DNA of 53,009 nt, taken from the NCBI GenBank assembly GCA_014377665.1, contig JACMPF010000079.1:1-53009 (forward strand), read 5' to 3'. Shown in pieces: positions 15,647 to 20,007 of the stretch; the first letter of the stretch is position 1, and every line of letters starts with the position of its first letter. Made by a program: the position numbers and the translations under genes. This DNA is from Pedobacter sp. Its GTDB lineage: Bacteria; Bacteroidota; Bacteroidia; Sphingobacteriales; Sphingobacteriaceae. The notes under the pieces are model-generated. The model searched no databases and was not told the DNA's origin. It was given only the letters and a program-made list of their open reading frames with translations.

Positions 15647-16711
15647 TTACAAGATCCAGTTCCAGCCGAACTCATCGGGGATTAACCCATAACGGATATC
15701 ATTGAGTGTTTTAGCAATTCCAGACGAAATGGTTCTTGTAGACGGATCTGGCAGTGTAAAGATCTTTCCATTGTATCCGATTTCACCAATAGGCGTAACA
15801 GTAGCGGCAGTTCCAGCAGCAAAGGCATCTGTTACGCTTCCACTTTCGATTCCGTCTAATATTTCTTTAACACTAACACGTCGCTCTTCAACTTCGATAC
15901 CAGCTTTTTTTGCGAGGGTAATTATGGTATCTCTTGTCACACCATCTAATACTGTACTTCTTACTGATGGAGTAATCAATTTACCTTCTATTACAAAAAT
16001 AAGGTTAGCCGTCCCAGCTTCCTCAATGTATTCGTGAGATACTGCATCGGTCCAAATCAATTGATCATATCCTTCTTTCTGTGCCTCAGCGAAAGGATAT
16101 AATGAGCGGGCATAGTTGCCTGCGGTTTTGGCAAAACCAACGCCGCCTTCGTCAGCACGTGTAAATTCAGTCTCTATCTTTACTTTCAAGGCTTTACTGT
16201 AGTAAGGCCCAGTCGGCGTGGTCAATAAGGCAAATGTATACTTGTCAGATGGCCTAACGCCAAGATAAGGGTCAGTTGCAAACATTACTGGGCGGATATA
16301 TAAGGAATACCCATCCTGTGAAGGAACCCACTTTTCATCGATCTCGATCAATGCTGCGATTCCCTGCATAAATATATCACTTGATATCGAAGGCATTGAC
16401 ATGCGGGCGGCAGATCTATTAAACCGTTCATGGTTTTTATTCCCACGAAAAACCCCAATCTTTCCGTTCTCCTGACGATATGCTTTCATACCTTCAAAGA
16501 TTGCCTGACCGTAATGAAGTGCTGAAATTGCAGGACTCATAGGAATAGGTCCGAAAGGCAAAACTTGCAGGTTACCCCATTTTTCGTTGTCATATTCGGC
16601 AATAAACATGTGGTCTGAAAATACTTTACCAAAAGGTAGTTGAGAAAAATCTGTTCCAGTTAATCTACTTTCTTGTGCCTTTGTTACCTTTATATCTAGT
16701 GCTTCGTTCAT
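15647..16711 (-). CDS. ilvE: branched-chain amino acid aminotransferase
   Basis: A 354-residue fold-type IV PLP aminotransferase, which transfers the amino group between glutamate and the 2-keto acids of Leu, Ile and Val. The Schiff-base lysine is K195 in GFAKTAGNYARS. Other class-IV features are ALHYGQAIFEGMKAYR (65-80), YIRPVMFATDPYLG (138-151) and EEAGTANLIFV. The length fits the eukaryote-like BCAT subgroup (about 355 residues). I take the ATG at 16711; a TTG at 16732 would add 7 residues. A TAnnTTTG match on the minus strand (16730-16737), overlapping the end of the upstream gene, could be an internal promoter. It is the last gene of the operon. Confidence 0.94.
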   Translation of the reverse strand: MNEALDIKVTKAQESRLTGTDFSQLPFGKVFSDHMFIAEYDNEKWGNLQVLPFGPIPMSPAISALHYGQAIFEGMKAYRQENGKIGVFRGNKNHERFNRSAARMSMPSISSDIFMQGIAALIEIDEKWVPSQDGYSLYIRPVMFATDPYLGVRPSDKYTFALLTTPTGPYYSKALKVKIETEFTRADEGGVGFAKTAGNYARSLYPFAEAQKEGYDQLIWTDAVSHEYIEEAGTANLIFVIEGKLITPSVRSTVLDGVTRDTIITLAKKAGIEVEERRVSVKEILDGIESGSVTDAFAAGTAATVTPIGEIGYNGKIFTLPDPSTRTISSGIAKTLNDIRYGLIPDEFGWNWIL

Positions 16712-16729
16712 TTTGGTAGTGCTTTGCTG

Positions 16730-16737
16730 CAAATCTA
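16730..16737 (-). promoter_or_regulatory. possible internal -7 promoter element before ilvE
   Basis: The minus strand reads TAGATTTG here, a match to the Bacteroidota consensus TAnnTTTG, placed 18 bases before the ilvE ATG and overlapping the stop codon of the dioxygenase gene. I see no well-spaced -33 TTG. It may allow ilvE to be expressed separately from the rest of the operon. Confidence 0.3.
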
Positions 16738-17697
16738 AGTAAAATTACTTTTATTTAATGCTTCAATGACCCAACCTTTGCCCCATTCCTCCTTCTGCTG
16801 GCCCGTCCATAAGAACGGGTAAAATATCCTCTTTTGGAATCGCGGAGGTAAATATTTCTGCCAGTTGGTGCCGCCAGTTGCAGCTATGTTTACAGGATCA
16901 CGCTCCAAATATCGAACGGCAGATTTGTAATGAGATAATGGCCATTCCACATTTACATGTATGTCCAATTTCCTTAATTCAGCTGCCAGTTGAGAAGTGT
17001 CTTGTCCTTCCCTTTCCAATCTGTGATACAATGCAGAAAAGTTGTTGTATTGCTTTTTCTTTATAAGTTCTAAAAGTTGGTCTGAGTACTTACTAATGAA
17101 CTGCTTAAGCGTCAATGTTTGCTTGCCGCTTGCCAGTTCTGTTGCACCGAACTTCCAATAGATATTTTCAAATTGTTCCTCGAGGGAAGTATTCTGTAAT
17201 TCCTCCCTTCTACTTTTATCAACTAACCGAATGAAGTCAGTAGCACAGATTTCTATCATTCTATATTGAGCGGATTGAAAACCACTGGCAGGTAAGAGCG
17301 ACATTCTAAACTTTAAGAACTGGTCCCGTTCCATTCCGTCTACCATTACGTGAAATGAGGTGACCAAGGCGTTAAAATAGGTATTAATTCGTTTCACCCG
17401 ATTGGTGAAGAATTTTGCTGTAAGTTGCTGATGATTGGCAATCTGTTCGCATTCGTGGAGTGAAAGCTTAAAGTACAGCTCCGTGATCTGATGATACATG
17501 ATGAAAATCTCTTCATCAGGAAAGGGAGTCTTAGGACTTTGAAGGCTTAATAGGGTGTCTAAATGGATATAATCCCAGTAGGTGAGGAAGTCAGCATATA
17601 GCAAGCCATCTAGGTATGCCGACATATCCTGGCCCATAGCAGCATATTTCTCCTGTAACTTGTCTAATTTTTCTTTGATCTCTGGGGTAAGTTCCAT
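16735..17697 (-). CDS. tryptophan 2,3-dioxygenase family haem protein
   Basis: A 320-residue member of the tryptophan 2,3-dioxygenase superfamily. Known TDO oxidises L-tryptophan to N-formylkynurenine. Core features are kept: IFIMYHQITELYFK with the distal His H69, FRMSLLPASGFQSAQYR (130-146) with R131 expected at the substrate carboxylate, the proximal haem ligand H256, and T274 in AATGGTNW. However, the usual G-T-G-G-S-S-G-Y loop is replaced by ATGGTNWQKYLP, and the C-terminal tail differs from canonical TDO. Activity on tryptophan is therefore likely but not certain. It lies 9 bases after the SerB-like gene and 23 bases before ilvE. No kynurenine-pathway genes are in the window. Confidence 0.82.
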   Translation of the reverse strand: MELTPEIKEKLDKLQEKYAAMGQDMSAYLDGLLYADFLTYWDYIHLDTLLSLQSPKTPFPDEEIFIMYHQITELYFKLSLHECEQIANHQQLTAKFFTNRVKRINTYFNALVTSFHVMVDGMERDQFLKFRMSLLPASGFQSAQYRMIEICATDFIRLVDKSRREELQNTSLEEQFENIYWKFGATELASGKQTLTLKQFISKYSDQLLELIKKKQYNNFSALYHRLEREGQDTSQLAAELRKLDIHVNVEWPLSHYKSAVRYLERDPVNIAATGGTNWQKYLPPRFQKRIFYPFLWTGQQKEEWGKGWVIEALNKSNFT

Positions 17698-17706
17698 AAT
17701 TAATGG

Positions 17707-19005
17707 TTAATAAAGAACTCTGAATTTGATCGTATGTTCGATCTTTTTCAAAGATTTAAACACTTGATCATCATATTGTGCATTGATATCTGTAATCACA
17801 TATCCGATAACTGTGTTCGTCATCAGGAATTGCCCTACGATATTGATATCATGGTTAGCGAAAACCGTGTTTACCTGAGCCATGATACCTGGTACATTTT
17901 TATGAATGTGAATTAGGCGATGTGACTTGTCAATTCTTGGTAGCTGTAGATTGGGGAAATTATTACTAAGGTATGTAGTTCCTGTGTTCATGAAATCAAT
18001 CATCCTTTTCGGGATAAAGTTTGCATGTCGGGGATTCTGTTTGAGGTCTTCAAACACCACTATGCCCTTTTGAGTGCATGCAGTAATATCCAGCTTAGTT
18101 TTCGCACTGCCTAGATATCCTATTGTTTTAAGTTTTAAGGCTCTTTCCAATTTCTCTGCTTCGATCTTTTCGCCATCGGCAAGTAGCATCATATGGACAT
18201 CAGCTACGTACTTTTCTTCAAATGTGGGCTTATGCCTTATAGAGAATCCGTCTCTCTTCAACATCTCCAGACTTTCGGTAGGTGCATCTCCTATTACCAA
18301 GCAAAGAATTCTATTTTTTGGGTATGAAATAGCCCTTGGAAGGTTATTTACATATAGAAATTCATCAAAACTAGGGGTAACGTGATCAGCCTTTTCAACT
18401 ATACTGGCCCTTGAAATGTTTTCAGTAAAGGCATAGAACTTTTTAATTAGACCACTTTCTCTTAATTGGAAATCGGAATATCCATCGCCAATACCGTACA
18501 AATTACCTTCCAGGTTCATTTGACTAACGAGCTTTACTTTGCCACCTTCTTCACTTAATGGATTAGCGTGGTCATAGTCAATGATGTTCCCATCCCCTGT
18601 TGTGACAAAGGTATTGGCATAGATATTTTCTTTTTTAATATGATACTGACTTACTACAGGTGTAATGAATTCTTTGAAGCCGCCAGAAATGATAAGAACT
18701 TCATCAGCATGTGCTTTAAAAAATGCTGCATTTCTGGAGAAAGACGCAGAAACCTTTTTCTTTAACCTAGTAATTAATTGTTTTAGATGGTCTTCATTGG
18801 CTTCTAAAAGCTTAACCCTCTGTGCAAGGCTTTCGCTAAAAGACAGCTTTCCTTCCATAGAGAGATTAGTATATTCTTCAATCTTTTGAAATATTGCTTC
18901 TTTATCAGGATGTTTCTTTAGAGATATACGGGCCAGTTCATCTAGCGCCTCTACTTGCGTAAATGTGCTATCGAAATCAATGATGTAATAATTTTTTTGG
19001 TTCAT
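17707..19005 (-). CDS. SerB-type HAD phosphatase fused to a PGDH remnant and ACT domain
   Basis: A 432-residue fusion. Residues 1-220 form a phosphoserine-phosphatase-type HAD-IB domain with motif I DFDST (nucleophile D10, D12), motif II SGG (S107), K156, and motif IV GDGYSD (D174, D178). Residues 232-325 resemble the N-terminal substrate-domain half of 3-phosphoglycerate dehydrogenase, but the whole NAD-binding domain is missing. Residues 330-432 resemble the end of SerA: a stretch like NFPNLQLP followed by an ACT domain (RLIHIHKNVPGIM to the terminal LY). It probably dephosphorylates phosphoserine in serine synthesis, with the SerA-like/ACT part as an amino-acid sensor. The gene begins 1 base after the SDR gene ends. 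Confidence 0.85.
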   Translation of the reverse strand: MNQKNYYIIDFDSTFTQVEALDELARISLKKHPDKEAIFQKIEEYTNLSMEGKLSFSESLAQRVKLLEANEDHLKQLITRLKKKVSASFSRNAAFFKAHADEVLIISGGFKEFITPVVSQYHIKKENIYANTFVTTGDGNIIDYDHANPLSEEGGKVKLVSQMNLEGNLYGIGDGYSDFQLRESGLIKKFYAFTENISRASIVEKADHVTPSFDEFLYVNNLPRAISYPKNRILCLVIGDAPTESLEMLKRDGFSIRHKPTFEEKYVADVHMMLLADGEKIEAEKLERALKLKTIGYLGSAKTKLDITACTQKGIVVFEDLKQNPRHANFIPKRMIDFMNTGTTYLSNNFPNLQLPRIDKSHRLIHIHKNVPGIMAQVNTVFANHDINIVGQFLMTNTVIGYVITDINAQYDDQVFKSLKKIEHTIKFRVLY

Positions 19006-19006
19006 T

Positions 19007-19975
19007 TTAAATGTGTTTTAACGCCTCACAGGTTTCTTTAATGGATTGCTTTAGGGGTTTAAATTGTATTCCTGTTGTAAGTTTGATTTTTTCGTTTTCA
19101 TAAAGGCTTTCATTCATACTGCTCTTAGCTGCGTCATGGGTTAGCGCTGGAGTCTTAGATGTAAAAAAAGACGCTACTTTTGCTGCTCTCCATGCTATGC
19201 CTAACATCCATGGTGTAGCTTCTTTTGAAGGGGGCTTAACCCCAAAGCCATCAGCAATTTCTCTGAAGAATTCTTCATAGTAATAATTCTCTGCTGAAAT
19301 GGTGAAACGGTTTGATTGCTCTGCACTCTCCATAAGCGAGATCATACTTTTTGCAACGTCTGCAACATCCACGATTCCGGTAGCACCTCGTGTGTAATAG
19401 GAAAGCCCTTCTTTGACCAATTCAAATATTGCCCCGCTACCGGAAAAACCTGAATTGGCACCTATGATTACCGAGGGATTAACAATTACAGCATCCAGCC
19501 CCTCTGCAATACCCCGCCAAACTTCCATCTCTCCTTCATATTTTGAAATGGCGTAGCTATGAGCCTTAGCATCATATTCCCAAAAGTCAGTTTCAGTAAT
19601 AAGTTGGCCCTTTTTAGCATTACCAAGTGCTGCTACAGAACTGACGTGAAGGAGTCTTGCTTGATTTGATAAACATAAATTTACAATGTTGCTTGTCCCT
19701 TCAATGTTTGTCTTGAGCAGCTTTTTTTTATCTTTGGGATTGAAAGATACAAATGCCGCACAATGATAAACCTGGTGAATTCCTTCAAAGCTATCTTCCA
19801 GAGTGGCAAGATCCAGGATGTCGGCAATATACCATTCTATATTTGTATTGTTTTTCAGTAGCGCCGGTATAGCAGATTGCGCACGCTTAAGGGCACGTAC
19901 TTCTTTGCCTTGGTTGGTTAGCTGATGAACTAATTCTGATCCTAAAAATCCTGTAGCCCCTGTAATTAATATCAT
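19007..19975 (-). CDS. NAD(P)-dependent epimerase/dehydratase-like reductase (extended SDR)
   Basis: A 322-residue extended short-chain dehydrogenase. The N-terminus holds the cofactor motif G-A-T-G-F-L-G (residues 6-12), ADILD after strand 3 (51-55), and the active-site Y141-x-x-x-K145 with Ser near 112-113. This subgroup includes dihydroflavonol reductase-like and sterol dehydrogenase-like proteins, so the substrate is open. I choose the ATG at 19975; the in-frame TTG at 20002 overlaps a -7 promoter match and is unlikely. It is the first gene of the operon and ends 1 base before the phosphatase-fusion start. Why a reductase is coupled to serine, tryptophan and branched-chain genes is not clear. 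Confidence 0.85.
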   Translation of the reverse strand: MILITGATGFLGSELVHQLTNQGKEVRALKRAQSAIPALLKNNTNIEWYIADILDLATLEDSFEGIHQVYHCAAFVSFNPKDKKKLLKTNIEGTSNIVNLCLSNQARLLHVSSVAALGNAKKGQLITETDFWEYDAKAHSYAISKYEGEMEVWRGIAEGLDAVIVNPSVIIGANSGFSGSGAIFELVKEGLSYYTRGATGIVDVADVAKSMISLMESAEQSNRFTISAENYYYEEFFREIADGFGVKPPSKEATPWMLGIAWRAAKVASFFTSKTPALTHDAAKSSMNESLYENEKIKLTTGIQFKPLKQSIKETCEALKHI

Positions 19976-19999
19976 TTCATTTTTTTTAGGACTGTTTAT

Positions 20000-20007
20000 C
20001 AAAAATA
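20000..20007 (-). promoter_or_regulatory. -7 promoter element for the SDR-serB-TDO-ilvE operon
   Basis: The minus strand reads TATTTTTG, an exact match to TAnnTTTG, ending 24 bases before the SDR start codon at 19975. A second copy of the same octamer lies 14 bases upstream (20014-20021). One of the two should be the -7 box. This position also argues against a translation start at 20002. Confidence 0.5.

Follow-up and report, generated by a model that had tools for sequence, protein, structure and literature searches.

The described proteins closest to the one analysed here are SerA of E. coli, a type II 3-phosphoglycerate dehydrogenase (PGDH), and phosphoserine phosphatases (PSPs) that carry ACT domains. 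Passages of PMC6300728 place R60, R240 and H292 in the active site of E. coli SerA and describe H344, N346 and N364 of its ACT domain as serine ligands. Serine is described there as making the substrate and ACT domains rotate relative to the NAD domain, a response in which a Gly-Gly hinge has a part; absence of this hinge is named as one cause of the missing feedback in human PGDH. As described in passages of PMC10564941, SerB2 of M. tuberculosis, an ACT-bearing phosphoserine phosphatase, is inhibited by L-serine with a Ki of 22 µM; it carries both its ACT domains at the N-terminal end, and a substrate domain derived from SerA is not mentioned. In an algal bidomain PSP/glycerol-3-phosphate dehydrogenase, whose structure (6iuy) was among our solved-structure matches, a PSP-type HAD domain is fused to an NAD dehydrogenase of another family, and the protein is reported as a glycerol maker (PMC7468427).

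No SerB-SerA fusion of Bacteroidota was named among the literature matches listed (titles and opening lines of abstracts, with few subscription papers covered). In the passages matched, GapMind (PMC7311316) covers a Pedobacter strain, for which no SerB gap is shown, and PMC2705460 describes a PGDH-aminotransferase fusion in oomycetes and no SerB-SerA fusion. The latter is not described in the matched passages of PMC5764234 and PMC6303947 either. The individual domains are known, and their present arrangement and stepwise history were not found described among the matches listed.

The protein reported here is encoded in a 53,009-nucleotide stretch of DNA from Pedobacter sp., the whole of which is called the window below. 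It resembles E. coli SerA in its substrate and ACT domains and in its serine-binding residues, and it differs in having an added phosphatase domain and in lacking the NAD domain, the substrate arginines, the catalytic His and Glu, and the hinge. With SerB2 it shares the combination of a PSP with ACT and, if our reading is right, inhibition by serine. Its closest parallels are full-length SerB-SerA fusions of other Bacteroidota, which have the same domain order and the same phosphatase and ACT residues. Unlike the window protein, they keep the NAD domain and the equivalents of R60, R240, E269 and H292, and they likely represent the ancestral type.

Domain layout and predicted fold

The open reading frame at 17707..19005 on the minus strand was confirmed and encodes 432 residues. 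Its features are listed below, with the evidence for each in brackets.

17707..19005, minus strand: SerB-deltaNAD-SerA fusion protein, 432 residues plus stop (ORF, translation, relatives)
18340..19005, minus strand: HAD-IB phosphoserine-phosphatase-like domain, residues 1-222 (Pfam, NCBIfam, matches to 3kd3 and human PSP, residue conservation)
18025..18312, minus strand: N-terminal part of the SerA substrate domain, residues 232-327 (PF00389, model, superposition, residues)
18024..18025, minus strand: junction of residues 327 and 328, marking the site of the missing NAD domain, about 112-304 in E. coli numbering (alignment)
17971..18024, minus strand: C-terminal helix of the SerA substrate domain, residues 328-345 (NCBIfam, model, superposition)
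17923..17970, minus strand: linker with NFPNLQLP, residues 346-361, without the Gly-Gly hinge of E. coli SerA (sequence, alignment)
17710..17922, minus strand: ACT domain, residues 362-432, with H368, N370 and N388 at serine-binding positions (Pfam, alignments)

Pfam searches of the window protein placed HAD (PF12710) at residues 9-181 and the ACT family PF22629 at 364-427, both above cut-off, and 2-Hacid_dh (PF00389) at 241-319 with 26.8 bits against a cut-off of 24.6; a second ACT family, PF01842, stayed below its cut-off. None of the four Pfam families with E ≤ 1 is an NAD-domain family, and the alignment likewise contains no NAD-binding Rossmann domain with GxGxxG. Residues 328-432 aligned with positions 306-410 of the 410 in the NCBIfam SerA model PRK11790, whose whole-protein score (146 of 404 bits) was below cut-off. 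A sequence search against solved structures found the C-terminal half closest to E. coli-type SerA. When aligned with the E. coli enzyme, residue 327 corresponds to 111 and residue 328 to 305. Relative to the intact fusion of genome G529, 192 residues are missing, and overall about 193 of SerA's NAD domain. The initial annotation, which had put the SerA-like segments at 232-325 and 330-432 with some 190 residues lost between them, was right to within a few residues.

In the enzyme family of SerA the NAD domain is an insertion within the substrate domain, so its excision leaves the parent domain whole. A model of residues 225-432 built from 49 sequences reached a pLDDT of 80.7 and a pTM of 0.79, with ten-residue pLDDT means of 90-95 at fragment residues 11-80 and 80-86 at 81-130. 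The best structural match of the predicted fold was E. coli SerA (2p9g_A; Z 22.8, 2.2 Å over 202 residues), residues 5-207 of the model superposing on residues 7-410 of that chain with the NAD domain skipped, and Foldseek concurred (1sc6_D, TMq 0.81). A resemblance to the PGDH substrate domain that had at first been noticed by eye is borne out by this superposition. Pfam, the model and the superposition together place both the substrate-domain fold and the C-terminal ACT of type II SerA in the protein. The ACT part was modelled less surely, with block means of 49-85 in this model and 41-72 in a whole-chain model. The latter (pLDDT 74.1) had a pTM of 0.46 and was therefore set aside for placing the ACT domain relative to the phosphatase.

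All HAD-IB motifs that had been claimed for residues 1-220 were found, namely DxDST (D10, D12, S13, T14), the motif II serine (S107), the motif III lysine (K156) and GDGxxD (G173, D174, D178). E19 and R63 are present too, at positions that grip the serine moiety in known PSPs. Of the fusion rows covering these phosphatase residues, only that of G403 deviates (S13Q, E19D). The closest solved protein is the PSP-like 3kd3 (E 1.2e-24 with the whole protein, 3.5e-25 with the domain alone), and human PSP matched at about 6e-15 and 2e-15, respectively. The window protein scored 60.4 of the 144.15 bits required by the serB model TIGR00338, a cut-off that no protein reached in any of the 26 genomes examined, whereas 7 of 14 control genomes have one that does; the window protein passed the broader HAD-SF-IB model (60.4 vs 45).

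On the dehydrogenase side, R60-S61 of E. coli SerA are replaced by A-D, and binding of 3-phosphoglycerate is therefore unlikely. R240, H292 and E269, the last a catalytic residue of the E. coli enzyme, are all absent from the aligned window protein. A best-hit annotation could mislabel the fusion as a dehydrogenase, which it cannot be. H368, N370 and N388 align with H344, N346 and N364 of E. coli SerA; they do not vary within alignment A1 (55 rows, almost entirely Pedobacter), and the serine-ligand positions are kept in every covering fusion row, all NAD-less ones included. Purifying selection is strong. The ratio of dN per domain to whole-gene dS, estimated from 52 pairs with whole-gene dS of 0.15-1.0 among 76 sequences (nearly all Pedobacter), was lowest in the phosphatase (0.007), followed by ACT (0.015) and the substrate remnant (0.043). 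Constraint extends to the remnant, where it is roughly sixfold weaker than in the phosphatase.

Distribution, intermediate forms and order of events

The same one-piece protein occurs, far more often than chance would give, in 35 of 35 sampled congeners (78-91% identity) and in all 80 loci kept, the best 80 of 167 relatives, which are nearly all from Pedobacter, have 79-88% identity and span residues 1 or 3 to 432. In a sample of the family (Sphingobacteriaceae, going by organism names), 290 of 301 genomes matched, each once except G309, which matched twice; residue spans were seen for the listed rows, and elsewhere "NAD-less" rests on the single match. At the level of the order 120 of 121 genomes matched, every one of them in this family. 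That the protein is an assembly artefact or a decaying pseudogene might be suspected of a source assembly that is an 80.6%-complete draft in 296 contigs. This explanation was rejected as having next to no credibility, considering that the 290 matching family genomes include single-contig ones and that the gene is under strong purifying selection. The survey confirms that the NAD-less SerB-SerA architecture is real. Within the family sample, no match was obtained in G264, which belongs to the same genus, in G178, or in any genome sampled from genera g34, g46 and g47. In G264, which is 99% complete, the fusion was not found and the TIGR00338 matches were only weak.

Outside the family the picture is more varied. 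A match of some kind was seen in 94 of 295 genomes sampled from the class, in many cases to the phosphatase alone or SerA alone, and in a sample of the phylum 35 of 296 matched at E ≤ 1e-30. Many of the strong matches fall into two segments separated by about 570 bp within a single open reading frame, which makes them complete SerB-SerA fusions, of 627-685 residues stop to stop when intact, in other Bacteroidota families (for example G529, G049 and G474). Among 49 full-length fusions scored, 44 (one of them, G591, read from two contigs) keep R60, R240, E269 and H292 along with the NAD domain and are therefore probably bifunctional. The other five have a damaged dehydrogenase. The fusion of G344 (L143) has R60G and R240G with H292 kept; those of G553 (L154), G442 (L192) and G501 (L213) have lost R60, carry R240Y and N or R for H292, retain a recognisable Rossmann domain and, judging from these substitutions, are likely pseudo-dehydrogenases; and that of G361 (L193), 732 residues long, has an eroded Rossmann motif. 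In genus g76, serB (233-236 residues) adjoins serA (376-414 residues) as a separate open reading frame.

NAD-less fusions also occur outside the window family, namely in genus g14, where they were seen in G048, G376 (split between two frames) and G412 (split between two contigs), and in one f36 genome, G835. The G835 fusion (L205:6339-7634) is 63% identical to the window protein and five other f36 genomes listed had no match at 1e-30 in the phylum sample, which suggests acquisition by horizontal transfer. In the single-contig genome G376 (L139) the NAD-less fusion lies in two overlapping frames of 115 and 345 residues; sequencing indels are possible in this genome, since its stand-alone SerA match is split too.

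A tree of 65 rows was calculated with the NAD and R60 columns left out and without G501. The window family forms one clade (100/100), sister to the damaged-dehydrogenase fusions of family f11, which are those of G553 and G442 (98/90), and g14 falls outside the clade that holds both (100/99). A single excision of the NAD domain shared by the window family and g14 was considered and judged unlikely. A clade of the two is rejected by the AU test (p 0.0135), and their junctions differ, with 192 residues missing in the window family vs 199 in g14 relative to G529. Thus g14 likely lost the domain independently, and there were probably two excisions. This independence is not certain because the g14 branch is long (1.31), the model's bias with such branches carries over to the AU test, and grouping window family, g14 and f11 in one clade is not rejected (p 0.132). 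On the tree, at least four changes are needed to account for the lost dehydrogenase residues, a count that alone does not separate gain from loss.

Separate genes, full-length intact fusions, full-length damaged fusions and NAD-less fusions all exist among living genomes. From these forms we infer that an ancestral serB-serA gene pair would have become one bifunctional protein and that, in the window lineage, the dehydrogenase would have died before the inserted NAD (Rossmann) domain was excised, with the parent substrate domain remaining as a continuous folded adaptor followed by ACT. The initial claim of a two-enzyme fusion whose SerA had lost its NAD domain agrees with the intact, unfused-adjacent and damaged forms as well as with the superposition. 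It amounts to a plausible stepwise route for converting one enzyme into a component of another from the same pathway, and nearly all of the steps have living representatives.

Proposed function and alternatives

The window genome encodes, beside an over-cut-off serC, a 316-residue SerA without ACT; it has both 2-Hacid_dh Pfam domains, and its best NCBIfam model, PGDH TIGR01327, is below cut-off. A match to this stand-alone SerA at E ≤ 1e-60 was found in 60 of the 63 NAD-less genomes tested, in all five damaged-fusion genomes and in 28 of 44 intact-fusion genomes; the separate SerA envisaged at the outset exists and is ACT-less in the window genome. Not included in these counts are G496 (residues unscored), G375 and G600 of genus g76, whose genes are unfused, and five genomes of the family that lack a fusion and all have the stand-alone SerA. 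The NAD-less genomes without a match are G067 (71% complete), G090 (92%, 230 contigs) and G835, where serC adjoins a divergent dehydrogenase with 35% identity. The 16 intact-fusion genomes without a stand-alone SerA would need their fused dehydrogenase, which fits the picture. Over 56 tree rows, with 5 family rows not covered by the search and 4 unfused rows dropped, a second SerA accompanied a dead dehydrogenase in 28 and was missing in 1, and accompanied an intact one in 14 and was missing in 13. The association was not significant, and no link is claimed because just three independent contrasts exist, one in favour and two uninformative.

We propose, with a probability of roughly 65%, that the fusion is the cell's phosphoserine phosphatase and carries a SerA-derived serine-sensing ACT module. 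The ACT domains would probably pair side by side, with L-serine bound where they meet as in E. coli SerA. Binding would lower phosphatase activity, for which the serine inhibition of SerB2 is a precedent, so that feedback would sit on the last enzyme of the pathway, and the 3-phosphoglycerate dehydrogenase step would be done by the separate ACT-less SerA encoded beside serC. The initial annotation had suggested that SerA became a serine sensor; the evolutionary half of that suggestion is supported, and the regulatory half is favoured by the conservation of the ACT and phosphatase residues and by purifying selection. If true, end-product control moves from the first to the last step, and an unusual control point of serine synthesis is predicted for a large bacterial family. 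A broader version, in which a bifunctional fusion of first and last enzymes repeatedly became a phosphatase with its dead partner as a serine-sensing allosteric module, end-product control shifting from the committed to the final step, is tentative, its odds being slightly short of even.

The missing Gly-Gly hinge argues against serine sensing, and with the NAD domain absent, a serine signal would have to reach the phosphatase in some other way. ACT could serve oligomerisation alone, the substrate shell and ACT acting as a scaffold that keeps the phosphatase dimeric while ACT senses nothing or, for example, glycine. Besides the lost hinge, the roughly sixfold faster change of the substrate remnant fits such a scaffold, as does the precedent of mammalian PGDH, in which ACT domains are present yet serine-insensitive. 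In that enzyme, however, the serine-site residues are altered (both points from passages of PMC6300728), whereas the invariance of H368, N370 and N388 exceeds what pure oligomerisation would need. We regard a mere scaffold as unlikely.

Still less probable is that the module acts in trans, binding the separate SerA and conferring serine feedback on it, with first and last enzymes in one complex. The 316-residue protein has no ACT, such type III enzymes are described as not serine feedback regulated (passages of PMC6300728), and the two proteins co-occur in nearly all NAD-less genomes, as counted above. However, E. coli SerA is described in the same source as assembling through NAD-NAD and ACT-ACT interfaces. 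The fusion lacks the former and the separate SerA the latter, and a heteromer is less likely because neither known interface is available to pair. The two genes lie on different contigs of the window assembly (184 and 83) with no linkage seen, although long-range linkage is still possible. It is very improbable that the HAD domain is another small-molecule phosphatase, such as a histidinol-phosphate phosphatase, with phosphoserine not its main substrate. The sub-cut-off TIGR00338 score would allow it, and genetic data in passages of PMC5764234 led to the proposal that some PSP-annotated genes are histidinol-phosphate phosphatases. Against it, the solved structures nearest in sequence are those of PSPs or of a PSP-like protein, E19 and R63 are kept in all covering rows but that of G403 (E19D), the domain is fused to SerA of the same pathway, and the window protein is the only one above the HAD cut-off in its genome (80.6% complete). 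A serine-sensing phosphoserine phosphatase is thus the reading that we prefer.

Gene neighbourhood

There is no adjacent serine gene in the window, and the neighbourhood therefore says little on function. The neighbours of the fusion gene are the following.

19007..20002, minus strand: NAD-dependent epimerase/dehydratase-family gene, directly upstream (PF01370)
16735..17697, minus strand: tryptophan 2,3-dioxygenase-family gene, 9 bases downstream (PF03301 over cut-off, TIGR03036 below)
15647..16732, minus strand: branched-chain amino acid aminotransferase, further downstream (PRK13357 and TIGR01123 over cut-off)

None of the three was seen by fusions of other families (0 of 35 loci) or of g14 (0 of 4), absences that are uncertain because the flanks are short in some loci. 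With the fusion gene they form a tight four-gene run at 15647-20002 on the minus strand (1, 9 and 2 bases apart, going by the listed starts) that is widespread in Pedobacter. All 80 Pedobacter-type loci (L025-L104) have the epimerase-family gene upstream in the same orientation; the dioxygenase-family gene was found in 69 of them and the branched-chain aminotransferase in 76. The epimerase-family gene is also upstream in 19 of 20 loci from other genera of the family.
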